IMG/VR virus record: IMGVR_UViG_3300005577_000108
Span: 1-20,039 of that record
Strand: one strand, 5' to 3'
From: a virus
Length of the DNA stretch: 20,039 nt
Part shown: positions 1 through 17,292 of the stretch, piece by piece
Position numbering within the stretch: the stretch's first letter is position 1
How the letters are laid out: every line of letters starts with the position of its first letter
Position numbers and translations under genes: made by a program
Notes under the pieces: model-generated
Databases searched by the model: none
What the model saw: the letters and a program-made list of their open reading frames with translations, nothing else
Told to the model about the DNA's origin: nothing

Positions 1-18
1 GTGGGAATAGGAGTACCG

Positions 19-234
19 ATGAGTGACTTCATCACGTTCCGCCAGCGTGAGCACGTTCCCGAGAATGTGTTCAACAACGGTGTGCTGATCGGGCACGTCG
101 AGTTCGTAGGTGACGGATGGAAGTCCTATCACCGTAATGGCGAGCAGGCCGGGTTCAGCGAGCACAAGTCGAGGGCTGCGCGACTTTTGGCTGAACAACT
201 ACGCGAGAGTAAACGACTTGAGGAGACGAAATGA
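19..234 (+). CDS. Hypothetical small phage protein, 71 aa
   Basis: This short soluble protein begins MSDFITFRQREH and is rich in charged residues, with a basic and acidic C-terminal helix-like stretch (SRAARLLAEQLRESKRLEE). I do not recognise its family. I chose ATG 19 over GTG 1 because AGGAG lies at 9-13, five bases upstream of 19, an ideal ribosome binding site. The GTG at position 1 sits at the window edge with no visible context. Its stop overlaps the next start as ATGA (231-234), so it is the first visible member of a tightly coupled early operon. Function is unknown. Confidence 0.7.
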   Translation: MSDFITFRQREHVPENVFNNGVLIGHVEFVGDGWKSYHRNGEQAGFSEHKSRAARLLAEQLRESKRLEETK

Positions 235-590
235 GCTGGGACGACAACCCGCTGTACCACCCGGAGAAGCACGGGCTAACCCTCGTCGCCGAGGTCGAGT
301 TGAGCGAGCCCTGCTACTCGTTCGACACCCTGGCCGTCTGGCGTGGACCCAAGGGCTACTACATGGGAACCGACTCCGGCTGCTCGTGCCCGACGCCGTT
401 CGAGAGTTACAACGGCGTCGAGGACATGACCGGGCCGCTCACGGTCGACGGGATCCTCGACGAGGCATCGGCGCTCAAGGCCGCTTCCTACGAGCCCAAG
501 TACGACATCGACGGTTTCAACGAGTTCGTCCGCACCGTCCGGGCCAGCGAGACCGATTGGCTGCGAGAGCGCGCGGAGTTGACGCGATGA
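231..590 (+). CDS. Conserved phage protein of unknown function (DUF7574-like)
   Basis: A 119-aa protein starting MSWDDNPLYHPEKHGL. The YHPEKHGL...VEL...CYSFDTLAVWR...DSGCSCPTPFE pattern resembles a family common in actinobacteriophage early regions that I recall as DUF7574; this is from memory. The CSCP motif and a third Cys (near residue 28) could bind metal, but no full zinc site is evident. No signal peptide or membrane segment is visible. It overlaps both neighbours by four bases (ATGA at 231 and 587), so it is probably translated by coupling. No function can be assigned. Confidence 0.75.
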   Translation: MSWDDNPLYHPEKHGLTLVAEVELSEPCYSFDTLAVWRGPKGYYMGTDSGCSCPTPFESYNGVEDMTGPLTVDGILDEASALKAASYEPKYDIDGFNEFVRTVRASETDWLRERAELTR

Positions 591-949
591 GCATCCAGGA
601 TCGCGAGGCGGTCGACTCTGGCACCGAAGATGGCGTTGAGTGGCGCACAGTTGAGGCTCCTATCTACGGGGCAATCAACGGTTACGCGAAGGTGCCCGAG
701 GATCACCCGTGGTTTGGGCTCGACTACGACGACATCGACGTGCGAGTGCATGGTGGGCTCACGTTCGCGTCGGGCGGCTGGATCGGTTTCGACACCCTTC
801 ACATGGGCGACTACTGGCCGGGAGTCCCGTACGGTCGCGACTTCGAGAGCATCGAGTGGGACGCTCCGATGGTCGCCGACGAGGCGCGCCGGCTCGCGCG
901 GCAGATTGCCCAAGCATGGTCAAGTAGTGAGAAGGATTCCGATGCCTGA
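587..949 (+). CDS. Conserved hypothetical protein with HGGLTF / GFDTLHMGD motifs
   Basis: This 120-aa protein contains the sequence YGAINGYAKVPEDHPW, then VHGGLTF, then WIGFDTLHMGDYWPG, and ends in a helix (VADEARRLARQIAQAW). That order of motifs is one I recall from small proteins in Gram-positive phages and some bacterial genomes, none with a known role. The conserved His, Asp and Trp residues look structural or catalytic, but I cannot say which. The start at 587 overlaps the previous stop (ATGA) and the gene ends across the next start at 942, giving an eight-base overlap. It is a soluble cytoplasmic protein by composition. Confidence 0.75.
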   Translation: MSIQDREAVDSGTEDGVEWRTVEAPIYGAINGYAKVPEDHPWFGLDYDDIDVRVHGGLTFASGGWIGFDTLHMGDYWPGVPYGRDFESIEWDAPMVADEARRLARQIAQAWSSSEKDSDA

Positions 950-1118
950 CGTGAGCCTGAGCTACGACGAGTCCTACCCCGTGTTCTTCATCACGAGCTC
1001 CGACGACCCCGACTACACCGTGCACATGACGCAGAAGGAAGTCAATCGGATCATGCGGGCTAGCGACGAGTGGGAAGCGGTACAGGCGATGATGCGCGAG
1101 AGGTGCGACTGGCGATGA
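942..1118 (+). CDS. Hypothetical protein, 58 aa
   Basis: An acidic 58-aa protein (MPDVSLSYDESYPVFFITS...) with no recognisable domain. ATG 942 is preceded by AGAAGGA at 930-936, five bases upstream, which supports this start over a longer in-frame ORF beginning at 630 that would lie inside the preceding gene. It overlaps the previous gene by eight bases and the next by four (ATGA at 1115). The position in an unbroken chain of coupled small genes suggests an early host-takeover or accessory role, but this is inference. Confidence 0.65.
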   Translation: MPDVSLSYDESYPVFFITSSDDPDYTVHMTQKEVNRIMRASDEWEAVQAMMRERCDWR

Positions 1119-1447
1119 GATTCGAGGAAGCTCGACGCATGGTGCAACCGCACCTAAAGTTCGCGCAGGTGCCGCGCGCTGGCGGGGTCGTCACGGAGGG
1201 CGTTATCAATGCGGCAACAGCCGCGTCTCTGATCGTTGGCGCTACGGAGACGGAGATGAAGGACAGTCTCCAAGATGGGTGGTGGTCGGGCGTCCGAGAC
1301 GGGTACGACCTGGCCCGCAAAGTCATCGAAGACAAGTTCTTCGGTGGCCCGACGAAAGACATGATTCTCGGCTGGCTGGCCGAACATGACCCATCCGCAG
1401 AACCAGCATCCCCTGATGCACTTCCAATCGAAGGAGAACCGAAATGA
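1115..1447 (+). CDS. Hypothetical protein, 110 aa
   Basis: A 110-aa soluble protein starting MRFEEARRMVQPH. The middle (VINAATAASLIVGATETEMKDSLQDGWW) looks helical and mildly hydrophobic but not long or hydrophobic enough to be a clear membrane segment. It ends in a proline-rich, acidic tail (PSAEPASPDALPIEGEPK). I do not recognise a family. Start and stop overlap neighbours as ATGA at 1115 and 1444, which argues that the frame is real. Confidence 0.7.
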   Translation: MRFEEARRMVQPHLKFAQVPRAGGVVTEGVINAATAASLIVGATETEMKDSLQDGWWSGVRDGYDLARKVIEDKFFGGPTKDMILGWLAEHDPSAEPASPDALPIEGEPK

Positions 1448-1563
1448 GCACTGACCATTGGCATCACGCATATGTCCGCTGGTTCGACCACGACCGTGCT
1501 GGGCACCGTATTCGGGCAACCCTCTGGGGTTGGATCGCTGACCGCCGCGCTGCCGCGTTGTGA
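1444..1563 (+). CDS. Small ORF, 39 aa, His/Trp/Arg-rich
   Basis: This tiny ORF encodes MSTDHWHHAYVRWFDHDR followed by an Arg/Trp-rich tail ending AAAL. It is supported by an upstream AAGGAGAA (1431-1438), six bases from ATG 1444, and by exact four-base overlaps at both ends (ATGA at 1444, GTGA at 1560). The density of His, Trp and Arg is unusual for random sequence. It may be a small nucleic-acid or metal-binding peptide, but nothing establishes that. Confidence 0.5.
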   Translation: MSTDHWHHAYVRWFDHDRAGHRIRATLWGWIADRRAAAL

Positions 1564-1805
1564 ACGCGATCACCCGGCCGCACACGGCGCTTCTGGTGGG
1601 CGACATCGTTGACTGCGTGATCGGCACGCAGTTCCTACCGAATGAGTCGGGCGACCCGATCAACCTGCACAGCGGTGGCACCCTCACGCGCTGGAACAAG
1701 CACAACATGGCCGAGGTCACCTGGCCGGATGGCTCGAGCTACAGCTATGAGCCGGCGCTGCTGCGTCACCACATTGAGCCATGCTTGACTAAGGAGAACC
1801 GATGA
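1560..1805 (+). CDS. Hypothetical protein, 81 aa, GTG start
   Basis: An 81-aa protein with a probable small beta-barrel pattern: ALLVGDIVDCVIGTQF, then GGTLTRWNKHNMAEVTWPDGSSYSYEPALLRHH. The 'VGDIVD...G...G...V.WPDGS' layout resembles KOW/SH3-like folds, but this is only a pattern impression. GTG 1560 overlaps the previous stop (GTGA). The gene ends with AAGGAGAACCG across the next start at 1802, so its tail also carries that gene's ribosome binding site. Confidence 0.65.
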   Translation: MNAITRPHTALLVGDIVDCVIGTQFLPNESGDPINLHSGGTLTRWNKHNMAEVTWPDGSSYSYEPALLRHHIEPCLTKENR

Positions 1806-2119
1806 TCGAGCTGGACCTAGATCGCATCGCCAAACGACGGACGGATATCCTGACCGACCTTGGCACGAACGCGCTCGCTAAGGCGGCGCTCGCGCTCGGC
1901 ATGGTAGATCGAGACGTTCCCGCCCTAGTCACCGAGATCGTCCGTCTGAACAACGAACTGATCGACGCGCAGGGTGATGCCTCGCCTGCCGTGATTTGGG
2001 ATGAAGGCTACGACGCGGGCATGGATGATGAGGCGTTCGATTCGCGCGGTCTATCCACAGACCCTGGGCGCGATCATCCCCGCCGCCGTAGGTGTCGACA
2101 TCGGCTGCGGCACGCCTAA
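1802..2119 (+). CDS. Hypothetical protein, 105 aa, with a foreign out-of-frame C-terminus
   Basis: Residues 1 to about 80 are a regular soluble, helical protein (IAKRRTDILTDLG..., ALALGMVDRDVPALVTEIVRLNNELIDAQ) ending in GYDAGMDDEA, a common tail in small phage proteins. From about residue 80 the sequence becomes low-complexity and Arg/His-rich (DHPRRRRCRHRLRHA). That stretch is the same DNA that encodes a clear RtcB motif in the next frame. I infer that the natural C-terminus was replaced when an rtcB fragment was joined here, or that the gene was truncated by the same event. AAGGAG precedes ATG 1802. Family unknown. Confidence 0.6.
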   Translation: MIELDLDRIAKRRTDILTDLGTNALAKAALALGMVDRDVPALVTEIVRLNNELIDAQGDASPAVIWDEGYDAGMDDEAFDSRGLSTDPGRDHPRRRRCRHRLRHA

Positions 2120-2129
2120 AGCGTACTAA
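2046..2129 (+). pseudogene. rtcB: Out-of-frame relic of RtcB (RNA 2',3'-cyclic phosphate ligase)
   Basis: In the +1 frame relative to the gene at 1802, bases 2061-2111 encode TLGAIIPAAVGVDIGCG, followed by TPKAY and a stop at 2127-2129. GAIIPAAVGVDIGCG is the signature block of RtcB; its Asp and Cys (D-I-G-C) are manganese ligands in the family. The residues before it (AVYPQ) only loosely match the usual GSVIPT lead-in. Nothing downstream continues the protein, which is normally about 400 aa or more. The frame has ATG codons at 2025 and 2028 but no good ribosome binding site. I read it as a short remnant of a former or neighbouring-phage rtcB left by recombination. Confidence 0.7.
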
Positions 2130-2173
2130 ACCCCAAAAACGTGCAGCTACCGGACGGCGCAGCAAGAGCACCC

Positions 2174-2401
2174 ATGGAAAGGACCGGTAGCCCTGACGGT
2201 GGGCAGGACCCGAATTCGCGCCCGTACAAGCGCCCCACCACCCATTCCGATATACGACCGGCTGACGTGAATCGGCCCGAATTGTTTGCACGTCATCGTG
2301 ACGTTGAAAGGAAGTTGCGAGTGGATGCCCGAAACGGTGCGCTCGAAATGGTCAAGCTCGGACTCACCAGCGACCAGCTCAGCAAGATGGCCAGCGCATG
2401 A
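2174..2401 (+). CDS. Hypothetical protein, up to 75 aa, start uncertain
   Basis: The C-terminal half (RHRDVERKLRVDARNGALEMVKLGLTSDQ) looks like a charged helical segment. The N-terminal part is Pro/Gly/Arg-rich and less protein-like. Possible starts are GTG 2141, ATG 2174 (weak AGCAAGAG upstream) and GTG 2321, which has an ideal AGGAAG at 2309-2314 six bases before it but gives only 26 aa. The stop overlaps the next start (ATGA at 2398), so this frame is probably translated. An eight-base inverted repeat (2146-2153 with 2184-2191) lies across the upstream start region. No function assigned. Confidence 0.4.
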   Translation: MERTGSPDGGQDPNSRPYKRPTTHSDIRPADVNRPELFARHRDVERKLRVDARNGALEMVKLGLTSDQLSKMASA

Positions 2402-2613
2402 GCAAGAAATCGGTGCGCCAGGAACTCGTGGAACAGGTCATCATCGACCATCAGGTAGATATGTCGGGAACTGCGATGGGCGGCGGCTGGGATTTGTGGC
2501 AGGCGAGCTGCCGATCGTGTGGCATTGTTCCGCGCGACGAGTGGCCGGCAGCTCATATCGCCCGCATCCTCGATCAGCACAAGTTGATCGTCCGCAACCC
2601 GACCACTATCTGA
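2398..2613 (+). CDS. Hypothetical protein, 71 aa, with one CxxC
   Basis: A 71-aa protein: a helical N-terminus (MSKKSVRQELVEQVIIDHQ), then WDLWQASCRSCGIVPRDEWPAAHIARILDQH. The WxxxCxxCG...HxxxxxxxxH arrangement (Cys near residues 38 and 41, His near 52 and 59) is compatible with a small zinc-binding fold of the kind often seen in actinophage genes, but the fold is not established. Translation is likely coupled to the upstream gene through the ATGA overlap because no separate ribosome binding site is obvious. Confidence 0.65.
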   Translation: MSKKSVRQELVEQVIIDHQVDMSGTAMGGGWDLWQASCRSCGIVPRDEWPAAHIARILDQHKLIVRNPTTI

Positions 2614-2629
2614 GCATTTGGAGACAACC

Positions 2630-3010
2630 ATGACGGATCGAATCAGAACGGATTCTGGCCAGAACTTTTGGCGTGATGGAGATGGATGGCTGATCGAGGC
2701 CACCGTGGAAATCGACGTCGCCTGGACGACGTTCGGGCTTGCTGAGTTCATCCAGAAGGTTCAGGACGCAGCCGTGATCTTCGCCGAGGAGCCGACTGTG
2801 TCGATCGAGACTGAACTCAGCTACGAAGACAGCATCATCCTAACCTTCGCGCTCGAAGGCAAACGCCGAGCCACTGAAGCCGAGGTCGAGATGGTAGAGA
2901 GATGGATAGCGTCCGAGCCGGCACGGCAAGCTGCCGCAGACCTTTCTGCGCGGCTCAAGGCAGAGTCCGAACTCATGCGGATCCGCGCCCAATATCCGGA
3001 TCTCGTCTAG
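2630..3010 (+). CDS. Hypothetical protein, 126 aa
   Basis: A soluble alpha/beta protein beginning MTDRIRTDSGQNFW. It has a strand-like N-terminus (GWLIEATVEIDVAW), a helix (LAEFIQKVQDAAVIF), a second strand region (TVSIETEL...SIILTFALEG) and a long charged C-terminal helix (EVEMVERWIASEPARQAA...LKAESELMRIRAQY). I do not recognise the family. GGAG at 2620-2623 lies six bases before ATG 2630, so I chose this over the TTG at 2618. It starts a new translational unit 16 bases after the previous stop. Confidence 0.7.
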   Translation: MTDRIRTDSGQNFWRDGDGWLIEATVEIDVAWTTFGLAEFIQKVQDAAVIFAEEPTVSIETELSYEDSIILTFALEGKRRATEAEVEMVERWIASEPARQAAADLSARLKAESELMRIRAQYPDLV

Positions 3011-3049
3011 CCCTGAACGTTCCGATATACGACAAGCGAAAGAGACCTG

Positions 3050-3229
3050 ATGATCAAGAGTCACGACAACCCGATCCTCGCTAGTCTGCGAGATCCCGAA
3101 CTGGACTGGGTGACGCCGGCGTACCTGCTCGATGAACTCGACTACAGGATCATCACCGACTACGAGACACCCGCTGACATCGAGGATGCACGCCGCGTGC
3201 TGAGCCGCCTCGTCTCGACAACAACTTAG
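3050..3229 (+). CDS. Hypothetical protein, 59 aa
   Basis: A short acidic protein: MIKSHDNPILASLRDPELDW, then VTPAYLLDELDYRIITDYETPADIEDARRVLSRL. The pattern is a compact helix-rich domain with a predicted two-helix C-terminus. AAAGAG at 3040-3045 lies upstream of ATG 3050 at four to five bases. It lies 39 bases after the previous stop and eight before the next start. No family recognised. Confidence 0.6.
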   Translation: MIKSHDNPILASLRDPELDWVTPAYLLDELDYRIITDYETPADIEDARRVLSRLVSTTT

Positions 3230-3237
3230 GAGACAGC

Positions 3238-3546
3238 ATGACCTACAGGGTTGTCGCCAACTACGTTCCAAGCGGACGCCTAGCAATCGTCGAGGAGTGG
3301 GAAAGTGACCGGATCGCCAATCGTCGCGAGCGCAAACTCAACAAGGAGATCCGAGCCAAGTACCGGAAGCTGGGCCAGGCAAGTCCGATCTGGTACCGGG
3401 TGATCTACTCGGGCAGCGCCTGGGACGGGTGGAAGGAAGACCGCAGTCTTGTCGCTGCGGCGCGCGGGCATGCAATCGTTCGAGTCGCCAGCCGCAAGAT
3501 AAATGACGCCTTCATTCGAGGGTTCGAGAGGCTGAAAATCCAGTAA
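3238..3546 (+). CDS. Hypothetical basic protein, 102 aa
   Basis: A basic 102-aa protein (MTYRVVANYVPSGRLAIVEEWESDRIANRRERKLNKEIRAKYRK in outline), with a very Arg/Lys-rich stretch near residues 25-45 and a second basic helix at the C-terminus (ASRKINDAFIRGFERLKIQ). This composition suggests nucleic-acid binding, but no named fold is visible. AGGAG at 3229-3233 precedes ATG 3238 by four bases. It is the last gene of the left small-gene operon; a hairpin-rich gap follows. Confidence 0.65.
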   Translation: MTYRVVANYVPSGRLAIVEEWESDRIANRRERKLNKEIRAKYRKLGQASPIWYRVIYSGSAWDGWKEDRSLVAAARGHAIVRVASRKINDAFIRGFERLKIQ

Positions 3547-3696
3547 ACGCAAGCGTTTTTAAGCATGCATGCACCCATTCTTGTTTCTTTGAGATCCGCT
3601 GGCACTCTCGTCGCCTGAGTGCCAGGATTGAAAGTGAAACCCCCGCGCCGGATTGCGCCCGGCCGGGGGCTTGACCAGCTCATGTGAGGAGCCAGC
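3545..3696 (+). terminator. Non-coding gap with three inverted repeats; probable operon end
   Basis: The gap between the basic protein and the HNH gene holds three inverted repeats. AAACGC/GCGTTT (3545-3550, 3553-3558) is followed by a short T run (3556-3560) and starts on the stop codon. GGCACTC/GAGTGCC is at 3601-3607 and 3617-3623. The strongest is a stem of 3640-3645 with 3664-3669 plus 3647-3651 with 3659-3663, one bulged base and a seven-base loop, without a T run. The last is the best terminator candidate, of the U-less type common in high-GC actinobacteria. No convincing promoter was seen. Confidence 0.5.
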
Positions 3697-4206
3697 ATGC
3701 ATATCGTAGCCGTCAATCCGGAGAAATATCAAAGAGCATCCGAACGTCCTTACGTAGTCGAAAAGCTCACCGACCCGAACTACACCACCCGCGTTGACAC
3801 GGGCTGTCTGGTGTGGACTAAGGCGATCAGTTCAACGGGGTACGGCGTTACATCGAACGCCGGACTCAACCTGTCAGTGCATCGCCTCGCGTACTGGGTC
3901 AACTACGGCCCGGTCGAAGGCGACCTAGTTGTGGACCATGTGTGTCGCAACCGCGCATGCTGCGAGCCGGCGCATCTGCGCCTTCTGACACGCGCGGAGA
4001 ACACCGCCGATTCGCACACCGCGCACAAGACGCACTGCTCCCACGGTCACGAGCGAACCGAAGAGAACGTCTACGTCTGGTTCGACCGCAAGGGCAACAT
4101 CCATCGCCAATGTCGAATCTGTGCCACCGAGAAGTCGAAGCGGTGGAACCGAATCAGGACCGAACGCCGCCGAGCGGCAAGAGCGGCGGCTGCGGTCGCC
4201 AGTTAG
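3697..4206 (+). CDS. HNH endonuclease with C-terminal zinc cluster
   Basis: This 169-aa protein fits the HNH_3-type phage endonucleases. After GCLVWTKAISSTGYG comes LSVHRLAYWVNYG (His 62), then VVDHVCRNRACCEPAHLRLLTRAEN (Asp 80, His 81, Cys 83/88/89, His 93, Asn 102). A second metal cluster follows: CSHGH (114-118) and CRIC (139-142). The C-terminus is very Arg-rich. Such enzymes nick or cut DNA and often act as free-standing homing endonucleases, though some serve other phage functions. AGGAG at 3686-3690 lies six bases before ATG 3697. It sits alone behind a hairpin-rich gap and seven bases before the recombination genes, as expected for an inserted gene. Confidence 0.85.
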   Translation: MHIVAVNPEKYQRASERPYVVEKLTDPNYTTRVDTGCLVWTKAISSTGYGVTSNAGLNLSVHRLAYWVNYGPVEGDLVVDHVCRNRACCEPAHLRLLTRAENTADSHTAHKTHCSHGHERTEENVYVWFDRKGNIHRQCRICATEKSKRWNRIRTERRRAARAAAAVAS

Positions 4207-4213
4207 GCGACCC

Positions 4214-4579
4214 ATGACCAGGTCCAGAGCAAGCGCTAAGTCGGCCGGCGCGTCACACGAACGCGCCATCGCGGACTACCTAGCCCTCCATGTTGACGAC
4301 CGGATCGACCGCCGCGTGAAGACCGGCGCGAAGGATCGTGGTGACGTCGGTGGCCTGCGCGTGCTCGGCAACCGGATCGTCCTCGAGTGCAAAGACTACG
4401 GCGGCAAGATCCAGGCCGCCGAGTGGATCAAGGAAGCCGAACTCGAGGCGGGCAACGACGACGCAGCAGCCGGAATCGTCATCGCCAAACGACGCGGCGT
4501 CACCGCTCCCGGCAAACAGTGGGTGCTCATGGACGTCGACACCCTCATCACCCTCATCACAGGACAGAGACCCGAATGA
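4214..4579 (+). CDS. PD-(D/E)XK nuclease, Holliday-junction-resolvase-like
   Basis: A 121-aa protein with the compact resolvase-type nuclease core. Glu 16 lies in the first helix (ASHERAIADYL), Asp 44 in KDRGDVGG, and Glu 58/Lys 60 in IVLECKD, followed by a helical EAELEAGNDDAAAGIVIAKRR and a closing strand. This E-D-ExK pattern and size match Hjc-like and phage VRR-like nucleases. It would cleave branched or replication-derived DNA in the cytoplasm. I chose ATG 4214 rather than upstream in-frame starts, which lie inside the HNH gene. It overlaps the exonuclease gene by four bases (ATGA at 4576), placing it in one recombination operon. Exact substrate is inferred. Confidence 0.75.
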   Translation: MTRSRASAKSAGASHERAIADYLALHVDDRIDRRVKTGAKDRGDVGGLRVLGNRIVLECKDYGGKIQAAEWIKEAELEAGNDDAAAGIVIAKRRGVTAPGKQWVLMDVDTLITLITGQRPE

Positions 4580-5256
4580 CCCTGACAATCCTCAACGACA
4601 TAGAACAGGGATCCGCAGAATGGTACGAGGCACGCCTCGGAATCGTCACCGCCAGCACCGTAGGTCGACTGATCACCGCGAAGACAATCACGCCTGCCTC
4701 GAACGTGGAATCGCGGTCTCTCGCCGCAACCCTGGTTGCCGAGCGACTCAACGGGTGGGCTGACGACAACTACGTCTCTTTCGACATGGCCCGCGGGCAC
4801 GAAGTCGAACCCATCGCTCGAGCGTTGTACAGCGAGCATTACGCGCCAGTTGAAGAGGTCGCGTTCATGATCCGAAACGACGGCGGGTACGAGATCGGCT
4901 ACAGCCCGGACGGTCTAGTCGGCATCGATGGGCTTATCGAAATCAAGTCGAGGAGACCCAAGGAGCATCTGTTCGCGATCCTGGCCGACGCAGTGCCCGA
5001 CGAGAACATGTCGCAACTTCAATGCGGGTTGCTGGTATCGGGCCGTTCGTGGATCGATTACGTGTCGTACTGCGGCGGGATGCCGTTGTGGGTGAAGCGC
5101 GTGTACCCGGATGCGGACTGGTTCGCGGCGATCAAGAAGGCTGTCGAGTCGTTTGAGCGGGCCGCGACTCACATGATGTCCACCTACAGGATGGCGACCG
5201 CTGGGCTCCCCGCAACGGAGCGTGCCGTTGCGGTCCTCGAAGAGATGAGGTTCTGA
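4576..5256 (+). CDS. YqaJ-type viral recombinase / lambda-exonuclease family
   Basis: This 226-aa protein has the YqaJ/lambda-exo layout. Near the N-terminus is EQGSAEWYEARLGIVTAS; then MARGHEVEPIARALY with Glu 76 and Glu 78; YSPDGLVG with Asp 112; LIEIKSRR with the Glu 122/Lys 124 catalytic pair; and NMSQLQCGLLVSGR with Gln 149. Family members degrade one strand of duplex DNA 5' to 3' and feed single strands to an annealing protein. Length is normal for the family. It overlaps the resolvase-like gene (ATGA) and the next gene by one base (TGATG at 5254-5258). No annealing protein is recognisable by sequence next door. Confidence 0.9.
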   Translation: MTLTILNDIEQGSAEWYEARLGIVTASTVGRLITAKTITPASNVESRSLAATLVAERLNGWADDNYVSFDMARGHEVEPIARALYSEHYAPVEEVAFMIRNDGGYEIGYSPDGLVGIDGLIEIKSRRPKEHLFAILADAVPDENMSQLQCGLLVSGRSWIDYVSYCGGMPLWVKRVYPDADWFAAIKKAVESFERAATHMMSTYRMATAGLPATERAVAVLEEMRF

Positions 5257-5807
5257 TGGATCTGTCCCAAAGCATTGTTCCGAAGAGTGACCAACTCAAC
5301 GCAGACGATCTGATCGCAGGCCCGGTGACTGTCACGATCGAATCGGTAACGGCCGGCACAGACGAACAGCCGGTGAACGTGAACCTGGTTGAGTTCCCTG
5401 GCCGCGCGTACAGGCCGTCCAAGTCGATGCGTCGAGTGATGGTCGCGGCGTGGGGTCCGGAGACGTCAACGTATGGTCGGCGTCGGATGACGTTGTTCCG
5501 CAACCCGGATATCCAGTTCGGGGGGCGGGCCGTTGGTGGGATCGAGATCGCGGCCATGAGCGACATCGAGAAGCCGTTGACGATCGCGTTGACTCGCACG
5601 CGTGGAAGCCGGAAGGACTTCACGGTGAAACCCCTCGAGAGTGTGCCCGACGCAGCGGGTGAGTGGCTAGCGGCGATCGGTAAGGCGGCAACGATGGGAC
5701 AGCTCGAGGCGGCTTGGAGGGGAGCTGCGTCAGATGGGGTCGCTTCGGATCCGCGTGTGACGGCGGCGAAGGATGCGAAGAAGGCCCTGCTGGGCAAAGA
5801 AAACTGA
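5256..5807 (+). CDS. Unknown protein, candidate recombination partner of the exonuclease
   Basis: A 183-aa protein starting MDLSQSIVPKSDQLNADDL. It has a beta-rich N-terminal half (GPVTVTIESVTAG, VNVNLVEF, then a basic segment MRRVMVAAWG), a middle TLFRNPDIQFGG...GGIEIAAMSDIEKPL, and a helical Ala-rich C-terminus ending AKKALLGKEN. I recall similar genes directly after phage exonucleases but know no function. Its place and translational coupling to the YqaJ gene suggest a role with processed DNA, such as strand annealing; that is inference from context only. Confidence 0.7.
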   Translation: MDLSQSIVPKSDQLNADDLIAGPVTVTIESVTAGTDEQPVNVNLVEFPGRAYRPSKSMRRVMVAAWGPETSTYGRRRMTLFRNPDIQFGGRAVGGIEIAAMSDIEKPLTIALTRTRGSRKDFTVKPLESVPDAAGEWLAAIGKAATMGQLEAAWRGAASDGVASDPRVTAAKDAKKALLGKEN

Positions 5808-5814
5808 CGCCAAT

Positions 5815-5936
5815 CCGTCCACAGGCACTTCGCCCTTTCACATGCCCGGGTGTCGGCGATGACTGACAGGCTTTTGCACTGAGTTGTCCACCGAAATGCG
5901 GACAGAATGCACTTTCGAATCACAGGGTTGTCCACA
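5815..5936 (+). other. Cluster of DnaA-box-like sites; candidate origin region
   Basis: Three same-strand 9-mers resemble the mycobacterial-type DnaA box TTGTCCACA: CCGTCCACA at 5815-5823, TTGTCCACC at 5884-5892 and an exact TTGTCCACA at 5928-5936. The second and third are each preceded by TGCACT, a partial direct repeat. The second also begins an inverted repeat (TGTCC at 5885-5889, GGACA at 5900-5904). The cluster lies between the recombination and replication genes, a usual place for a phage or plasmid origin. Host DnaA binding is inferred. Confidence 0.4.
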
Positions 5937-5956
5937 GGGCAGCTTGCCGAACGAAC

Positions 5957-5970
5957 GTTCCACGTGGAAC
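5957..5970. promoter_or_regulatory. parS-like perfect palindrome GTTCCACGTGGAAC
   Basis: This 14-base perfect palindrome differs from the bacterial chromosomal parS core GTTTCACGTGAAAC by one base in each half, symmetrically. To my memory, forms with the same core occur among natural parS variants, for example in Pseudomonas. ParB CTPases load at such sites and spread along DNA. No parA or parB is in the window. It lies 20 bases after the exact DnaA-box-like site and 13 before the terminator hairpin. An operator for another dimeric regulator is the main alternative. Confidence 0.5.
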
Positions 5971-5983
5971 ATCAATACGAACG

Positions 5984-6018
5984 AAGCGGCCCAAAGGTGT
6001 TGGCGCACCGGGCCGCTT
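5984..6018 (+). terminator. Strong two-part terminator hairpin
   Basis: AAGCGGCCC-type arm 5984-5992 pairs with 6010-6018, then after a three-A bulge GGTG (5996-5999) pairs with CACC (6006-6009) around a six-base loop. The stem is 13 bp in total. There is no long T run, but high-GC actinophage terminators often lack one. It closes the recombination operon or insulates the candidate origin from it. It lies 31 bases before the TTG start of the next gene. Confidence 0.7.
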
Positions 6019-6049
6019 CTGATCCACCCACCTTGCAATGGAGGACTGA

Positions 6050-6241
6050 TTGTCGACCCTATCTGCCGCAGCCGATCATCTGCGAATGCTGCGCCTCGAA
6101 CGCGACCCCAAGCAGGACGCCCTCTACGTTCGCCTCGCCTTCACCTACGGGATCCCGGTTGACGAGATCGCATCCATCTCCGATCTGCCTCTTCAGCGCG
6201 TGAGAGCGATCCTCGACCCGAATAGTTGTGCCCGTGGCTAG
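6050..6241 (+). CDS. Small helix-turn-helix protein, TTG start
   Basis: A 63-aa protein whose residues about 27-56 (VRLAFTYGIPVDEIASISDL, then PLQRVRAIL) form a plausible helix-turn-helix: a first helix, a PVDEIASIS second helix and a recognition helix. It probably binds DNA. TTG 6050 is chosen because GGAGG at 6040-6044 lies five bases upstream and no ATG or GTG fits. It directly follows the parS-like/DnaA-box gap and terminator, and overlaps the replication gene by eight bases if that starts at 6234. It could be a regulator or origin-binding accessory protein; this is inference. Confidence 0.65.
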   Translation: MSTLSAAADHLRMLRLERDPKQDALYVRLAFTYGIPVDEIASISDLPLQRVRAILDPNSCARG

Positions 6242-6977
6242 GAAAAGGATGATCAGCCCCGAGCTCAGAACATCCGAGAAGGTTGCCCAATGGCCGCGCG
6301 AGGTCCGCTACTTCTGGGTGCTACTACTCGGCTACCTGGACGACTACGGAAAGGGGAAAGACAACCCGCAGCTCATCAAGTCCGACTGCCTCCCCCTCGA
6401 CGATGACGTGACCGCTTCGAAGGTGGACGAGTGGCTTTGGATCATCGCTGGGGCCGGCGTGATCGTCCGATACACGGCCGATGGCGTCAATTACATCGCC
6501 GCGGTGAACTGGAGAGAGCATCAGACGATCCAGCATCCTACCAACAGCAAAATCCCTGATCAGGAAGGGAATGAAATCCGCGTGAAAGGCTCACGAAAGA
6601 TTCGTGAAAGCCTCACTCCTAGTTTAGTTAAGAGTAATTCAATAGAAGCGTCACGCGGGCGCGTGACGGACAGTGACTTTCTTGTCGCCTGGACGCACTG
6701 GCCGAAGAAGACAGACCGAACCAAATCGTTCGAACGGTTCGCCGCCATCGCCAAGTCTCGAGGCCTCGAGACAATCACCGCAGAAGTGATCAAGTTCGGC
6801 GACGCATACGCACGAACGACCGAGAAGAAGTTCGTGCCGGCCCTTGCCGCTTGGCTAAACCGGGAACGATGGACAGACGAACTGCCCACGGCTGGCGGAG
6901 CAGCGCCGGCATACGTTCCAGAAGCCAAAGCTCCCGCAGGCAAGAAGTGGGCCGTCGATGTGATGGACGACTTCTGA
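6234..6977 (+). CDS. Phage replication initiation protein (DnaD/O-like architecture)
   Basis: The N-terminal domain (MARKRMISPELRTSEKVAQWP, then VRYFWVLLLGYLDDYGKGKDN, ending near VNWREHQTIQHPTNSKIP, residues about 1-108) matches the winged-helix-like domain of many actinophage replication proteins. A variable linker (about 109-143) is followed by a helical C-terminal domain (FLVAWTHWPKKTDRTKSFERFAA...). These proteins bind the origin and recruit the helicase. GTG 6234 gives the MARKRM start typical of the family; ATG 6249 has TAGGA upstream and is the alternative, and GTG 6228 is less likely. The linker-coding DNA holds an origin-like repeat array. It sits upstream of the ATPase gene, as expected. 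Confidence 0.75.
   Translation: MARKRMISPELRTSEKVAQWPREVRYFWVLLLGYLDDYGKGKDNPQLIKSDCLPLDDDVTASKVDEWLWIIAGAGVIVRYTADGVNYIAAVNWREHQTIQHPTNSKIPDQEGNEIRVKGSRKIRESLTPSLVKSNSIEASRGRVTDSDFLVAWTHWPKKTDRTKSFERFAAIAKSRGLETITAEVIKFGDAYARTTEKKFVPALAAWLNRERWTDELPTAGGAAPAYVPEAKAPAGKKWAVDVMDDF
6555..6668. repeat. Origin-like array inside the replication gene: iterons, AT-rich tract, palindromes
   Basis: CCTGATCAGG palindrome at 6555-6564. Two direct repeats, CGTGAAAGGCTCAC at 6581-6594 and CGTGAAAGCCTCAC at 6603-6616, match at 13 of 14 bases with starts 22 bp apart, about two helical turns. Between them TCACGAA/TTCGTGA (6591-6597, 6601-6607) form a perfect 7-bp palindrome with a 3-base spacer. An AT-rich tract follows: 6617-6648 has 9 G/C of 32. 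It ends in the 8-bp inverted repeat CGTCACGC/GCGTGACG (6649-6656, 6661-6668). The phage lambda origin has the same logic within gene O: iterons, then AT-rich DNA, in the initiator's linker. Confidence 0.6.
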
Positions 6978-7246
6978 TGCCCGCTATCGGCGCCTCGGTT
7001 GAAAAGTCCCTCGACGACAGCCTCCACAAGCTGCTGGCTGGGGAGATCGAACTATCCGACCTGACACCAGCCCTTCAAGGCTGGTACGTTGCCGGGTTTG
7101 TCAACGGGCAGCAGATCCTCCCCGAAGACGCTCACCTCCGCTGGGAAGCCGACCTCTGGTACTTCGTCGCCAACAACCGTGGCAAGACCGCATCTGACTT
7201 CTACGCCGGCATCACAACAAGGCTCTGGGAGGAGGCAAGTGAGTGA
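6977..7246 (+). CDS. Hypothetical protein, 89 aa, replication operon
   Basis: A small acidic protein (MPAIGASVEKSLDDSLHKLLAGEIELSDLTPALQGWYVAGF in outline, then LRWEADLWYFVANNRGKTASDFYAGITTRLWEEASE). The C-terminal part has a Trp-rich helical pattern. No family recognised. It is joined to the replication protein by TGATG (6975-6979) and overlaps the ATPase start at 7239 by eight bases, so the three are probably made together. A helicase-loading or adapter role is possible from position only. Confidence 0.65.
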   Translation: MPAIGASVEKSLDDSLHKLLAGEIELSDLTPALQGWYVAGFVNGQQILPEDAHLRWEADLWYFVANNRGKTASDFYAGITTRLWEEASE

Positions 7247-8117
7247 CGACTTCGAGAGCGCCGTCGAACAGCAGCGGTTCCGAACCGCTGTCTTCGAGGA
7301 AGCCAAGAACCGCGACAGAGAAGAGAGCGCAGCAAAGGTCGGAACGAAACTCGCCCCCAAACCGCTCGGAGAGATTCTGGCGGACGAGCCGACATGGGAT
7401 TGGCTTGTCCCGGATCTGCTCGAGCGGAAAGACCGACTCGTCGTAACCGGTGCTGAAGGTCTGGGCAAGTCGCACTTCCTCCGCCAGATTGCGATCAGCA
7501 TGTCTGCTGGTGTTCACCCGTTCAAGATCCGCGAGAAGGTCATCCCATCGAGGGTTCTGGTCATCGACGCAGAGAACACCGAACAGCAGTGGTCGCGTGG
7601 TGCACGGTACGTCACCCGACTCGCCGAGCAGCACGGTTCGGTCAGTCCTCGCCGGATGGTGCAAGTGTCGGCGGGGGTTCGCATCGACTTGACGTTGCGG
7701 GCTGACGTCAACCAGGTCCGCGCGCTGATCACAAACATGCGACCCGACGTGCTGTACATCGGACCGTTGTACAAGCTGCTGCCGAAAGCGTTGAACACCG
7801 ACGACGACGCAGCGCCCGTCATTGAAGCCCTCGACAGCTTCCGAGAGCTCGGCGTGACGTTGCTGATGGAAGCGCACGCCGGCCACGCCCGCAACAGTGC
7901 TGGCGAACGTGACCTGCGCCCGCGTGGCGCATCAGCTCTGCTCGGCTGGCCCGAGTTCGGTCTCGGTCTGGCGCCAGTCGACGAATCGGATCTGTCGATG
8001 GTGCGGTTGGCGCAGTGGCGCAACGGCCGCGAGCAACGTGATTGGCCGAAACATCTTAGGCGCGGGCAGGTCGGTGAGCTTCCCTGGGAGCCGGCTTTCC
8101 CCGATTCGAATCTGTAA
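7239..8117 (+). CDS. RepA-like AAA/RecA-fold replicative ATPase (helicase)
   Basis: This 292-aa protein has the RepA/AAA_25 fold. After WDWLVPDLLERKDRLVVTG comes Walker A GAEGLGKSH at residues 71-79, then VLVIDAEN (106-113) supplying the usual acidic residues, then a Walker-B-like PDVLYIGPLYKLLP and the sensor-like LMEAHAGHARN and RPRGASALLGWPEFGLGL. These hexameric ATPases act as replicative helicases or helicase-like factors at plasmid and phage origins. GTG 7239 is chosen because GGAGG at 7228-7232 lies six bases upstream; an ORF open further upstream would run through the preceding gene. It is placed between the initiation and SSB-like genes, as in a compact replisome cassette. Confidence 0.85.
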   Translation: MSDDFESAVEQQRFRTAVFEEAKNRDREESAAKVGTKLAPKPLGEILADEPTWDWLVPDLLERKDRLVVTGAEGLGKSHFLRQIAISMSAGVHPFKIREKVIPSRVLVIDAENTEQQWSRGARYVTRLAEQHGSVSPRRMVQVSAGVRIDLTLRADVNQVRALITNMRPDVLYIGPLYKLLPKALNTDDDAAPVIEALDSFRELGVTLLMEAHAGHARNSAGERDLRPRGASALLGWPEFGLGLAPVDESDLSMVRLAQWRNGREQRDWPKHLRRGQVGELPWEPAFPDSNL

Positions 8118-8146
8118 TACCCCTACCCGAAAAGGAATGAAAGCAA

Positions 8147-8452
8147 ATGGCAACGATCAACATTCAGAACGCGACCGTCCAGTTCGTGAACAACGGCAAG
8201 GGGTTCAAGGTACTTGAGGAGACCACATCTGGTGGCCGCACGTTCAAGCAGCAGTACACAGTGTGGGCTGAGCCGGGTCATGGGTATCAGGTCGGAGACA
8301 CGGTGTCTGTTTCGGGTTTCCTGGGTGCGAAGGTTGGGAAGCCCTGGACGGGTAACGATGGTGTCGAGCGGGCTTCGGTGGAGTTGTCGGTGAACTCGCC
8401 GACGTTCACGAAGTCGCCTGCTTCGGTGAACGAGGCTGAGGTTCCGTTTTGA
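8147..8452 (+). CDS. Probable single-stranded DNA-binding (OB-fold) protein
   Basis: A 101-aa protein with alternating strand segments: ATVQFVNNGKGFKVLEE, then FKQQYTVWAEPGHGYQVGDTVSVSGFLG, then VERASVELSVNSPTF. The 'GDTVSVSGFLGAKVGK...' strand-loop-strand is typical of OB folds in SSB proteins. The C-terminus EAEVPF resembles the acidic, Pro-Phe-ended tip by which SSB recruits partner proteins. It is shorter than bacterial SSB (about 160-180 aa). AAAGGA at 8131-8136 lies ten bases before ATG 8147. Its place after the ATPase supports a replication role. The assignment rests on pattern, not on a match to a named family. Confidence 0.6.
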   Translation: MATINIQNATVQFVNNGKGFKVLEETTSGGRTFKQQYTVWAEPGHGYQVGDTVSVSGFLGAKVGKPWTGNDGVERASVELSVNSPTFTKSPASVNEAEVPF

Positions 8453-9081
8453 GCGCTGATCCTGAACTTATCGATCTCATCAACGAACTCACCCAACCCA
8501 TCCGTGTCGACGTCTGGCAAGGCATGACGAAGCACGTCAGAACCGACCCGCCGCTACTCGACCAACTCAAAGCTGCCGTGACATCGAACGTGGGCGGTGC
8601 GGGCGGCGGATCCAAGGCAGCCCGCGAACGAACACCGCTCGACGTCATCGCGTTCACGCTGCTCGAGCAGATCGACGGGCAAGTCAGGGCGTGGTTGAAG
8701 GATGCAGGCGAACCGTGGGCCGGCGACATCAGCCCGTTGCTGCGGGCGTGGTACGTGATGCACACCCGATATGAACGACCTAAATCTGATCGTCACTTCG
8801 GGATCGTCGCCAGGTGGGTGGCATCCATCCATGACCTGATCGACCCACCCACCAGGCAGGAGATCACGTCACCGTGTCCGAACTGTGGGCAGACGTGGGT
8901 GACCCGAGGGCAGGGCAACGATGCTGAGTCGTTGCGTGCGCTGTGGGCGTTGTGGCGTGGCAATGCGGAAGACTCCGCAGCTCACTGTGAGGGTTGCGGG
9001 AAGACATGGAAGGGCGTGTCTCAGATGCGGTCTTTGCGTATCGCGATCGATGATGCTGAAAAACTTTCGGAACCCGCTTGA
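8449..9081 (+). CDS. Zinc-ribbon phage protein (DUF7341-like)
   Basis: A 210-aa protein: N-terminal PLLDQLKAAV, a Gly-rich link, then KAARERTPLDVIAFTLLEQIDGQVRAWLKDAG, helices to about residue 135, and a zinc ribbon formed by CPNCG (143-147) and CEGCG (180-184). The S/K-ARERTP...D...I...WL.DAG pattern is one I recall as DUF7341 of actinophages, common near DNA-metabolism genes. Its function is unknown; DNA or protein binding through the ribbon is inferred. TTG 8449 overlaps the SSB-like stop (TTGA). Its stop codon lies within the TTGACA box of the following promoter. Confidence 0.7.
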   Translation: MSADPELIDLINELTQPIRVDVWQGMTKHVRTDPPLLDQLKAAVTSNVGGAGGGSKAARERTPLDVIAFTLLEQIDGQVRAWLKDAGEPWAGDISPLLRAWYVMHTRYERPKSDRHFGIVARWVASIHDLIDPPTRQEITSPCPNCGQTWVTRGQGNDAESLRALWALWRGNAEDSAAHCEGCGKTWKGVSQMRSLRIAIDDAEKLSEPA

Positions 9082-9107
9082 CAGATCGAACTACACTCGT
9101 GTAACTT
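9078..9107 (+). promoter_or_regulatory. Sigma-70-type promoter, TTGACA -18 bp- TAACTT
   Basis: A perfect -35 TTGACA at 9078-9083 is followed after 18 bases by TAACTT at 9102-9107 (TAnnnT form). Between them lies the near-palindrome TACAC-TC-GTGTA (9092-9103), which overlaps the -10 and could be an operator. Transcription would begin near 9114, just after the replication operon ends and before a structured leader and terminator. Confidence 0.5.
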
Positions 9108-9113
9108 TGACCC

Positions 9114-9193
9114 CGCGCTGGATACCCCTGACTCAAAAACAGGGTGACGCGCCTGTATCAGTCCACTAAGGCTCACCTGCGGGTGGGCCTTTT
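9114..9193 (+). ncRNA. Candidate small RNA or attenuator leader, about 80 nt
   Basis: From the predicted start near 9114 the RNA could fold as GCGC (9115-9118) with GCGC (9149-9152) enclosing CCCTG (9126-9130) with CAGGG (9140-9144) and an A-rich nine-base loop, then a single-stranded linker, then the terminator hairpin ending at 9193. No ORF with a ribosome binding site lies within it. It is either an independent small RNA or the attenuated leader of the operon that starts at 9215. Homology to any known RNA is not claimed. Confidence 0.35.
9168..9193 (+). terminator. Intrinsic terminator with U tract
   Basis: AAGGCTCACC (9168-9177) pairs with GGTGGGCCTT (9182-9191) through ten pairs including one T-G wobble, with loop TGCG (9178-9181) and TTTT at 9190-9193. 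This is the best classical intrinsic terminator in the window. It stops either read-through from the replication operon or transcripts from the promoter at 9078, and lies 21 bases before the next start codon. Confidence 0.8.
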
Positions 9194-9214
9194 GCGTGGG
9201 CGGAACGGAACACA

Positions 9215-9454
9215 TTGTCATCGCTCGCAGCCGCACTCGCGGCACAGAAACCAGTTGGCAAAGGCACCAGATGCGGTGTCGGAACCCTGATCGAACAGCT
9301 CGACGACATCGACCGCAAAGCGCTCATCAACGCACTCGAGTCCGACATGTACGCCACCGACATCAGCCGGGCGCTGTACTCGGAAGGCCACAAGATCGGC
9401 GGAGGAACCGTCGCACGTCACAGGAAGCATGAGTGCAACTGTGACCGTGGCTGA
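9215..9454 (+). CDS. Small HTH DNA-binding protein, possible small-terminase-like
   Basis: A 79-aa protein: LIEQLDDIDRKALINALESD, then YATDISRALYSEGHKIGGGTVARHRKHECNC. Residues about 48-71 form a helix-turn-helix of the type 'SRAL..EGH.IG..TV.RHR..EC.C', common in short actinophage proteins near packaging genes that are variously called DNA-binding or small terminase. The C-terminal CNC and Cys 20 may bind metal. TTG 9215 has only a weak GGAACGGA upstream (9202-9209). It overlaps the phosphoesterase gene by 26 bases in another frame. A second small-terminase candidate lies at 11835, so I leave the role open. Confidence 0.6.
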   Translation: MSSLAAALAAQKPVGKGTRCGVGTLIEQLDDIDRKALINALESDMYATDISRALYSEGHKIGGGTVARHRKHECNCDRG

Positions 9455-10565
9455 CGCGCTCACGGGACGCGACATTCCCGAAGAGTGGCGAGCTCGGCGT
9501 GTTCTGAATGGCGACGAAGGCGAGACCGTCACCGGTCTCATCAAACCCGTCGACAAAGACGAAGACATCCTCCGCGAAGTTGGCTACGACCCCGACACCA
9601 TCGAGATCGTCGGCAACATCATGCAATGGCAGAAGCAGCAACCGGACGGCACATGGCGCGTCTCGTACCGGTTCTCGCATCGGCCAAAATCTGCATCCCT
9701 GAATCTTCCCGCGCTGTACGCAGCCGCGAGCAGGAAACCGCGTCAACAACTGAAGCCAGCCACGAGCGGCCATACGACGGTGGTTGTCCTCTCCGATGTG
9801 CAGGCCGGGAAGGTGGCAGCTAGAGGTGGGACGCCCGAGTTGATCGACCGGCTGGTCGAGAAGCGGGCGAAGTTGACCTCGTTGCTGTCACAACGCAAAC
9901 CCAGCAAGACAGTGCTGCTCGAGGCCGGTGACCTTTTCGAAGGGTTCGAATCCGGTGGCAATCCGATGTTCACCAACGATCTGTCGTTGGCGCAGCAGAT
10001 GGACCTCGCCGGCACTGAGGTGTACCAGTTCGTTGAGCTGATGCAACGTCACGGGCACGTCGACGTTGTTGCAGTCACGTCGAACCATACGGCGTGGCGC
10101 CGCGGTAAGCAGCAACTTGGGCGACCAGCTGATGATCTTGGCCTGTTCGTCCACAAGCAAGTCGAGAAGGTCGCCAACGCGGCCGGCATCGACGCCGCCT
10201 GGACGTACCCAGCTCCCTACGACGAATCGGTGACGCTCGACGTTGATGGGACCGTCATTGGCCTTGTCCACGGCAACCAGTTCGGTTCCGGGCGTGCGAT
10301 CGACTGGTGGGCCAAGCAGACGCACGGCGGTCAACCTGTCGGCGCTGCTGACGTTCTCGTCACAGGTCACTACCATCACCTGACCGTGATACCGACCGGA
10401 CGTAACCCATACTCGGGTCGCACGAAATGGTGGCTACAAGCACCCACCGTCGACAACGGGTCCGACTGGTTCCGCAACACGGCCGGCGACGACTCGGACC
10501 CCGGACTGATGGTGTTCGACATCGACGACAACGGGTTCAACCTGCAATCGCTCACAGTCCTCTAG
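9429..10565 (+). CDS. Calcineurin-like metallophosphoesterase
   Basis: A 378-aa protein with the metallophosphoesterase motifs in order: VVVLSDVQAGK (Asp 123; Gln 125 where most members have His), LLEAGDLFEG (Gly-Asp 167-168), VTSNHTAWR (Asn 219-His 220), VHGNQ (His 281) and VTGHYHH (His 314, His 316). The first 110 residues are a variable N-terminal part with TWRVSYRFSHRPK. Family members hydrolyse phosphoesters, often nucleic-acid ends (SbcD/Mre11-like) or nucleotides, using two metals. AGGAAG at 9422-9427 is one base before ATG 9429, which is close; an in-frame GTG at 9441 is possible. The DNA substrate is inferred from context. Confidence 0.8.
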   Translation: MSATVTVADALTGRDIPEEWRARRVLNGDEGETVTGLIKPVDKDEDILREVGYDPDTIEIVGNIMQWQKQQPDGTWRVSYRFSHRPKSASLNLPALYAAASRKPRQQLKPATSGHTTVVVLSDVQAGKVAARGGTPELIDRLVEKRAKLTSLLSQRKPSKTVLLEAGDLFEGFESGGNPMFTNDLSLAQQMDLAGTEVYQFVELMQRHGHVDVVAVTSNHTAWRRGKQQLGRPADDLGLFVHKQVEKVANAAGIDAAWTYPAPYDESVTLDVDGTVIGLVHGNQFGSGRAIDWWAKQTHGGQPVGAADVLVTGHYHHLTVIPTGRNPYSGRTKWWLQAPTVDNGSDWFRNTAGDDSDPGLMVFDIDDNGFNLQSLTVL

Positions 10566-10573
10566 ACCATAAC

Positions 10574-10602
10574 TTCACACGCGCGAGCCACGACGGTAGA
10601 TA
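10574..10602 (+). promoter_or_regulatory. Weak promoter candidate in the 10566-10643 gap
   Basis: TTCACA at 10574-10579 (five of six to TTGACA) and TAGATA at 10597-10602 are separated by 17 bases. The -10 match is poor. It lies upstream of a run of tiny genes. No terminator hairpin is obvious in the 78-base gap. Confidence 0.2.
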
Positions 10603-10643
10603 TCGGGGCAACAACTTCCCACACCAATAGCAGGCGGTGACGT

Positions 10644-10826
10644 ATGCAACGTCGCATCATCACCCTCACACTGCAATCCGCCGCCCTCATCGCATGCATG
10701 ACCGCAGGCTGGCACGTCTGGCCGTTAGCAATCGGACTCGGCGTTGCGCTCGGCCTGCATGCTGCCGGCTTCAAAGCAGCCGAAGACAACATCGACCAAG
10801 AACTACATGCAATGGTCGCCGGCTAA
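10644..10826 (+). CDS. Small membrane protein, 60 aa
   Basis: MQRRIITLTLQSAALIACMTAGWHVWPLAIGLGVALGLHAAGFKAAEDNIDQELHAMVAG. A basic N-terminus is followed by hydrophobic stretches at about residues 6-21 and 24-42, compatible with one long or two short membrane helices, and an acidic cytoplasm-like tail. No lysis-type motif is clear. GGCGG at 10633-10637 is a weak ribosome site six bases before ATG 10644. It overlaps the next gene by one base (TAATG). A membrane accessory or holin-like role cannot be excluded. Confidence 0.55.
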   Translation: MQRRIITLTLQSAALIACMTAGWHVWPLAIGLGVALGLHAAGFKAAEDNIDQELHAMVAG

Positions 10827-10996: not shown

Positions 10997-11153
10997 GTGG
11001 ATTCCGACACGTGACGGCATCCCGCTCAAAACCACCGACGCGATGCTCGAGTTCATCCGCGCACAATCCGACACGATCAAGGCGCTCGAAATTGAGCTCG
11101 CCATGTACCGCAGCATCGTTCCGACAGGAAGCGACCAACCCGCACATGTCTGA
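10989..11153 (+). CDS. Hypothetical protein, 54 aa
   Basis: A short helical protein (MPEWIPTRDGIPLKTTDAML, then EFIRAQSDTIKALEIELAMYRSIV) with a likely coiled-coil segment near residues 18-44. I chose ATG 10989, which overlaps the previous gene by eight bases; GTG 10956 is an alternative that would overlap by 41. It overlaps the next gene by eight bases. Family not recognised. Confidence 0.5.
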   Translation: MPEWIPTRDGIPLKTTDAMLEFIRAQSDTIKALEIELAMYRSIVPTGSDQPAHV

Positions 11154-11331
11154 CCCGGCTTGGGTTCCCGAAGCACGCGACGTACCAGCCGAACTCGACG
11201 ACAAGTTCGATCCAGCACGATACGAACAAGTCACATGGTCAACGGTGCAAGACAAACTCGACCACGCATCCCTCGCCGTGCTCCGCGAGATCATGCGCGG
11301 TGGAATCGGAGAACCCGATGATCGTCTCTGA
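11146..11331 (+). CDS. Hypothetical protein, 61 aa
   Basis: A small acidic protein (MSDPAWVPEARDVPAELDDKFDPARYEQ, then WSTVQDKLDHASLAVLREIMRGG). ATG 11146 is chosen over upstream in-frame codons because it is the only ATG and overlaps the previous stop. An AGGAAG at 11126-11131 is too far upstream to be ideal, so coupling is likely. It overlaps the next gene by 14 bases. No function assigned. Confidence 0.5.
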   Translation: MSDPAWVPEARDVPAELDDKFDPARYEQVTWSTVQDKLDHASLAVLREIMRGGIGEPDDRL

Positions 11332-11434
11332 CGAATACGCCGGCATGACCGACAAGGACCGAGACGCCACCATCAACGCATGCGAGTTAGCCATCGCAGA
11401 CATCAACGCACTCATCGACAACGATCAAGCCTGA
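11318..11434 (+). CDS. Small ORF, 38 aa, acidic
   Basis: This ORF encodes MIVSDEYAGMTDKDRDATIN followed by ACELAIADINALIDNDQA. GGAG at 11308-11311 lies six bases before ATG 11318, supporting translation. The sequence is a plausible short helical hairpin. It ends seven bases before the HNH start. Unknown function. Confidence 0.5.
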   Translation: MIVSDEYAGMTDKDRDATINACELAIADINALIDNDQA

Positions 11435-11441
11435 AGAAAAC

Positions 11442-11744
11442 ATGGGCGGCAAGAAACCCAAAGGCCACCCCGCCTACGCAGACCCACGCTACCGAGCAGC
11501 ACGCCTCGAACTACGCAAATGGGATCACATCTGCCACGCACCCGACTGCCGCCAACCAATCGACATGCAACTCAAATACCCACACCCGCTGTCATGGTCA
11601 GCCGACCACATCGTGCCCAAGTCAATGCTCAAACCAGGCGACGCCCGAATGTGGCACATCAGCAACCTTCAAGCCATGCACCTGACCCACAACCAGTCAC
11701 GCGGCAACAAGACAATGCCGAAGACAAGACCGCTCGACTGGTAG
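11442..11744 (+). CDS. HNH endonuclease, packaging-type
   Basis: A 100-aa HNH protein: CHAPDC (Cys 31, Cys 36), SWSADHIVPKS (Asp 55-His 56), HISNLQAMHLTHNQSRGNK (Asn 75, His 80, Asn 84). This is the classic compact HNH of phages in which the gene lies beside terminase; in HK97-type systems such a protein works with large terminase and portal to cut concatemers during packaging. The lack of a second Cys pair distinguishes it from fuller zinc-finger HNH proteins. Ribosome site is weak (GAAGAAAA at 11433-11440). Its location next to terminase strongly supports a packaging role. Confidence 0.85.
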   Translation: MGGKKPKGHPAYADPRYRAARLELRKWDHICHAPDCRQPIDMQLKYPHPLSWSADHIVPKSMLKPGDARMWHISNLQAMHLTHNQSRGNKTMPKTRPLDW

Positions 11745-11834
11745 GGGTGCATCAAATCTCTACAGCCAATTCATGCTGCGGACCCGCCAGCAGAAAAAAT
11801 CTCCCTCCGTCGTTTTCCCAAAGGTCGTGATCTT

Positions 11835-12113
11835 GTGGCTGCGAAGTTGCGGGCGGTTGGCGTGGATGAGCGGGCTGACCCGAAGTCGATTACTGAGGCT
11901 GCGGATCATGGGACGCGGCGTGAACTGTTGGTGGCGACTCGGGCTCGGGTTGCTGCGGCGGTTGAGGACAAGAACACGCCGGCTCGTGATTTGGCGTCTT
12001 TGACGATTCGGTTGATGGCGATCGCGAACGAGATTGAGGCGATTGACGCCAAGGAGGCCGGAGATTCCCGCGCCGAAGTCACCGACCAGCCATTCAACGC
12101 CGAAGCTATCTGA
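11835..12113 (+). CDS. Terminase small subunit-like protein, GTG start
   Basis: A 92-aa protein (MAAKLRAVGVDERADPKSITEAADHGTRRELLVATRARVAAAVEDKNTPARDLASLTIRLMAIANEIEAID in outline). The 'TP.RDLASLTIRL..IA.EIEAID' helix pair is common in the small proteins directly preceding large terminase in actinophages. They recognise DNA ends and load the large subunit. The frame is open upstream to 11745 but has no ATG, GTG or TTG there, so GTG 11835 is the start; AAAGG at 11820-11824 is ten bases away. It overlaps large terminase. Base composition changes sharply at about this point. Confidence 0.6.
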   Translation: MAAKLRAVGVDERADPKSITEAADHGTRRELLVATRARVAAAVEDKNTPARDLASLTIRLMAIANEIEAIDAKEAGDSRAEVTDQPFNAEAI

Positions 12114-14910: not shown

Positions 14911-14918
14911 GAGTCCTA

Positions 14919-17202: not shown

Positions 17203-17215
17203 CACCCGCTCACTA

Positions 17216-17272: not shown

Positions 17273-17292
17273 ACCCCGAATGGAAGGCAACA

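Follow-up and report, generated by a model that had tools for sequence, protein, structure and literature searches.

A short rtcB-derived shard at the end of an unrelated gene in a viral contig, best read as a recombination scar

The presence of an RtcB signature out of frame within an unrelated viral gene raises the question of whether the virus encodes this RNA ligase, a working part of it, or a relic of its gene. The window, which is the whole stretch of DNA analysed, is a fragment of 20,039 bases from a soil virus (IMG/VR record IMGVR_UViG_3300005577_000108) that carries RusA resolvase, YqaJ-type exonuclease, replication protein, MRE11-like exonuclease, terminase and portal genes. An earlier description made from the letters alone (the sequence-only reading) reported an RtcB motif over 2061-2111, held a chance match to be not credible, and proposed a database search, a comparison with related phages and a search for the breakpoint.

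Translation of 2061-2111 in frame 3 gives TLGAIIPAAVGVDIGCG, the metal-site block of RtcB, so the motif is readable where it had been placed, and the GAIIPAAVGVDIGCG block with its Asp and Cys metal ligands is present. The 17 RtcB codons are intact, with one additional rtcB-matching base on either side. The proposed database search led to rtcB with blastn and to RtcB with profiles. In blastn, the region matched 203 phage records and aligned over 2060-2112 with annotated rtcB genes, the best single-piece match being one of 53 bp at 90.6% identity in Caulobacter phages (E 6e-11), and RtcB or tRNA-splicing ligase is annotated under nearly all of the matches listed. The Pfam RtcB and PHROG tRNA-splicing-ligase profiles match this block alone; the Pfam score (12-15.7 bits, about 20 of 426 profile positions covered) stays under the cut-off of 27 because the block is so short. 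Scans of the viral and genome collections with exact and degenerate patterns of the shard gave no match. The Burkholderia matches that carry no annotated gene turned out to code for RtcB in records with sparse annotation, and a long open frame was shown for one of them.

The shard is identical to intact viral rtcB genes at up to 46 of 51 bases, against 31 of 51 at the best other 51-base site within the window. Mismatches to 86 intact rtcB blocks number 84, 50 and 836 at codon positions 1, 2 and 3 of the RtcB frame. For example, three records (L050, L099 and L054) have rtcB genes whose 17-residue peptide matches that of the shard despite 5, 6 and 6 base differences, respectively, all of which are silent and at third positions. 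Differences of this kind imply that the shard evolved as RtcB coding sequence until recently. Judged by its identity and codon-position pattern, the shard is genuine rtcB DNA and a chance match is excluded, in agreement with the sequence-only reading.

The similarity ends sharply at 2060 and 2112, and the flanks on either side are unrelated to RtcB, as had been stated earlier. In a profile of 84 rtcB genes, with which the upstream flank was compared, the 15 residues that precede the block include Asp, His, three Gly and Val with little or no variation. The window lacks D, H, G, G and G at -15, -13, -11, -9 and -5, and keeps Val and Pro alone, these solely with one codon inserted. Anchored alignment gave p of about 0.1 to the left of the shard and no RtcB match downstream. 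A leftward extension to 2044, obtained by an alignment to some mycobacteriophages with a 3-base gap, was not above chance. The start of the feature, earlier given as 2046, lay slightly too far left, similarity upstream of 2060 being indistinguishable from chance; the breakpoint suspected near 2040-2060 is placed by blastn at 2060, and a right end at 2112 is added. A piece of a foreign gene with unrelated flanks on both sides, as a scar would leave, is thus found at this locus. Among the 91 motif copies in the DNA examined, all but that of the window lie in long RtcB-type frames or in frames cut by a contig end.

The enzyme itself was looked for in the window. A full-length RtcB domain (about 400 residues) above the Pfam gathering score is absent, the open frame around the block having 44 codons, and RtcB has no further match in the whole window or in the six frames of 1-4250, for which Pfam returned only HNH and DUF7574 above the cut-off. 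The shard shares with RtcB (PF01139; PHROG 1075, tRNA splicing ligase) the 17 consecutive metal-site residues and their DNA, but it has no N-terminus; neither the guanylylation His nor the other His residues that bind metal were found in the window. Going by these searches, the contig encodes no RtcB enzyme, and the shard would be without RNA-ligase function because it lacks the three His ligands, the guanylylation His and all other parts of the fold. The locus is a warning against crediting a phage with an enzyme on the strength of a short motif match in its contig.

The gene that carries the shard (Table 1) is likely real, as its ATG overlaps the stop of the preceding gene (ATGA) and AAGGAG lies upstream. 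It ends in ...STDPGRDHPRRRRCRHRLRHA, an Arg/His-rich tail derived from the shard DNA in a non-RtcB frame; the origin earlier proposed for this tail is confirmed by the translation. Neither Pfam nor PHROG matches the gene, tblastn against phages gave nothing credible, and homologue searches for it and for the gene at 1070 gave none worth keeping. A +1 frameshift fusion, which had been offered as the less likely alternative, found no support, since a frameshift would add merely 22 residues to the product of the 1802 gene.

Table 1. Features of the window around the rtcB-derived shard and the backbone common to the relative L005
Feature	Position	Strand	Remarks
Gene of unknown function, 105 aa	1802-2119	+	Last part is the shard in another frame
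Open frame with the RtcB block, 44 codons	1995-2129	+	No convincing sign of being a gene
rtcB-derived shard, about 53 bp	2060-2112	+	blastn boundaries; codon-position pattern of differences
114-bp block common with L005, 89%	2134-2247	+	Right edge of the exchanged segment
Backbone shared with L005	4256-15401	+	97% over 4256-10715, 99% over 11146-15401; 15401 is where the L005 stretch examined ends

The setting of the shard was compared with the sole close relative found, the contig L005. To the left of the common backbone, L005 shares islands only, namely the 114-bp block, 3007-3035 (100%) and part of a gene at about 674-823. By this comparison, region 1-4255 is a variable, indeed hypervariable, gene cassette set against the L005 backbone. 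The shard ends 22 bp before the 114-bp block. The distance from gene end to block is 15 bp for the 1802 gene and 23 bp for the different gene that L005 has there; hence the shard marks the edge of the exchanged cassette, and it is located where close relatives differ, as expected of a scar. The comparison with related phages, proposed as a test for an intact rtcB at this place, showed the locus to be unrelated in L005 and rtcB to be present in none of eight related records (L005 and seven more distant viral records).

Intact rtcB is common in actinophages, often near comparable early genes. For example, rtcB adjoins rusA on a Prescottella plasmid, and in cluster K mycobacteriophages, whose rusA is the nearest DNA match to that of the window, rtcB lies about 5 kb away. 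Likewise, L049 has a homologue of the window's 8449 gene, with rtcB two genes ahead of it. The collections searched contained no donor more than about 91% identical over the block; the donor may be viral or bacterial. The scar proposed by the sequence-only reading is the best supported explanation, but that the rtcB in question belonged to a phage relative is not borne out, because none of the eight relatives has rtcB and no donor is closer than about 90%.

The shard would accordingly be best explained as the scar of a recent, essentially non-homologous recombination and not as a functional part of RtcB, with a probability of roughly 0.78. An intact rtcB, viral or bacterial, would have supplied about 53 bp of its middle part, to be joined in between the 1802 gene and the conserved 2134 block, within a cassette rapidly swapped among sister phages; the piece would be expressed, if at all, solely as the out-of-frame C-terminus of the 1802 protein. 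The sharp ends, the unrelated flanks, the silent-only differences and the position at the edge of a cassette unlike that of the sister contig argue for this reading. We infer both the recombination route and its recency; for this event, a non-homologous route is favoured because there are no shared flanks. Exchange between temperate phages reportedly involves small gene fragments more often than whole modules, and relaxed homologous recombination has been argued to be the main route, with illegitimate joining being rarer (PMC3945230). Mycobacteriophage Giles is cited as holding host metE DNA, and its source paper, by its title, concerns the gain of host DNA by a phage through illegitimate recombination (cited in PMC3203893 and PMC3519483). 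Like the metE capture of Giles, the shard is part of a gene of cellular type that became joined, at a gene boundary, to a mosaic phage genome; unlike captures of that type, it is much shorter than a typical captured gene. Against the scar reading, neither the donor nor the pre-recombination state of the exact locus is present in any sequence examined, and the junction occurs in one contig only. The shard is also short, and it falls on the family's most conserved block, as would be expected of a conserved target site too; detection bias accounts equally well for this coincidence. The shard is ordinary phage mosaicism, and it offers a clean, small example of how phages remake gene ends, a recognisable gene shard having become the C-terminus of an unrelated protein.

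A conserved target site would be at hand if the shard were the common core of the attP with which a temperate phage enters the rtcB of its host, a tyrosine integrase pairing the 53 bp with the same sequence in the host gene. Sharp-ended identity with unrelated flanks suits this improbable reading, as do the high conservation of the target, the tyrosine integrase gene of L005 (6469-7284) in the corresponding cassette, and the cores of 24 and 47 bp known in cluster K mycobacteriophages (PMC3203893). An imperfect palindrome of 30 bp (2082-2111, centre GTCGAC) points the same way, but it lies entirely within the rtcB-derived stretch. Moreover, the site is inside a likely gene, no arm-type repeat family was found flanking 2060-2112, and no integrase is recognised in the window, which is a fragment with genes left of base 1 outside its view. 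The exact 47-mer and a partly degenerate 44-mer were absent from the genome collection searched, and a literature search found no paper tying rtcB to an integration site. As many as 481 of 484 motif-bearing phage records match at least 80% of a 25-residue query including the native RtcB flanks, so the motif stands without those flanks in at most three. In sum, the shard resembles the attP core of tyrosine-integrase phages in its short, sharp-ended identity to a gene present in hosts, and differs from it in being a mid-gene block of rtcB and in having no arm-type repeats, with no adjacent integrase recognised and no exact host match found. It is more doubtful still that a whole phage group uses such a core to integrate at the catalytic-centre codons of host rtcB. 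If true, an attP at rtcB would switch off host RNA repair in lysogens, and the core would be a new integration target tied to RNA repair.

A misassembly, in which a short stretch of rtcB-derived read was wrongly built into the metagenomic contig of a phage, is quite improbable: the window is a single metagenomic contig and no second contig with the junction was found, but after a misjoin at a shared repeat at least one flank should be rtcB, neither flank is related to RtcB, and the right one runs on into the block common to L005. Actinophages often have rtcB in comparable early regions (the Prescottella plasmid, cluster K, L049), and the shard might accordingly be what is left of an rtcB that once stood at the same spot in the phage lineage. 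Such a history is very improbable, as it needs two separate deletions, one on each side, that left the internal 53 bp undecayed, and no related contig has an intact rtcB at the spot. Least credible is a functional peptide with the RtcB metal-site loop, e.g. a decoy or a metal-binding tail, translated from ATG 2025 to TAA 2127-2129, the stop of the 44-codon frame, or as a +1 frameshift product of the 1802 gene. The frame is open and its 17 residues are perfectly preserved, but recency accounts equally for the preservation; no strong ribosome-binding site is evident, no homologue with the same arrangement was found, the sister phage L005 is without the peptide, and the RtcB active site is otherwise missing.

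Several minor observations concern the cassette and its surroundings. The counterpart of the 114-bp block in L005 is 5810-5923, and the block is conserved between otherwise unrelated cassettes. Seven of its 12 differences fall at the third position of one forward frame (TAQQEHPWKGPVALTVGRTR...), in which no ORF with a clear start and no family match was found; as a known gene, RNA or terminator, 2134-2247 gave no convincing match. A stretch of 29 bp is identical between the window (3007-3035) and L005 (5784-5812); it adjoins the 114-bp block in L005 and lies about 760 bp off in the window, as if short pieces had been reshuffled in the cassette. L005 has its integrase gene just before rusA, and the window has an HNH endonuclease gene there instead; an 18-nt inverted repeat (94% complementary, 9-nt spacer) precedes the L005 integrase gene at 6389-6433. 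A small early gene of the window (620-890) shows 68-74% DNA identity to genes of Gordonia phages, mycobacteriophage LittleE and the Microcystis cyanophage MinS1, a wide range of hosts for DNA so similar. The rtcB of Brevibacterium phage AGM2 (L024, 1321-1914) has only about 197 codons and looks truncated or interrupted; from 1964 onward it is followed by a large HNH-endonuclease ORF with internal repeats annotated. On the minus strand of the window, 15463-18861 holds an open frame of 1132 codons antisense to the capsid-region genes, which is probably a by-product of G+C-rich codon usage.
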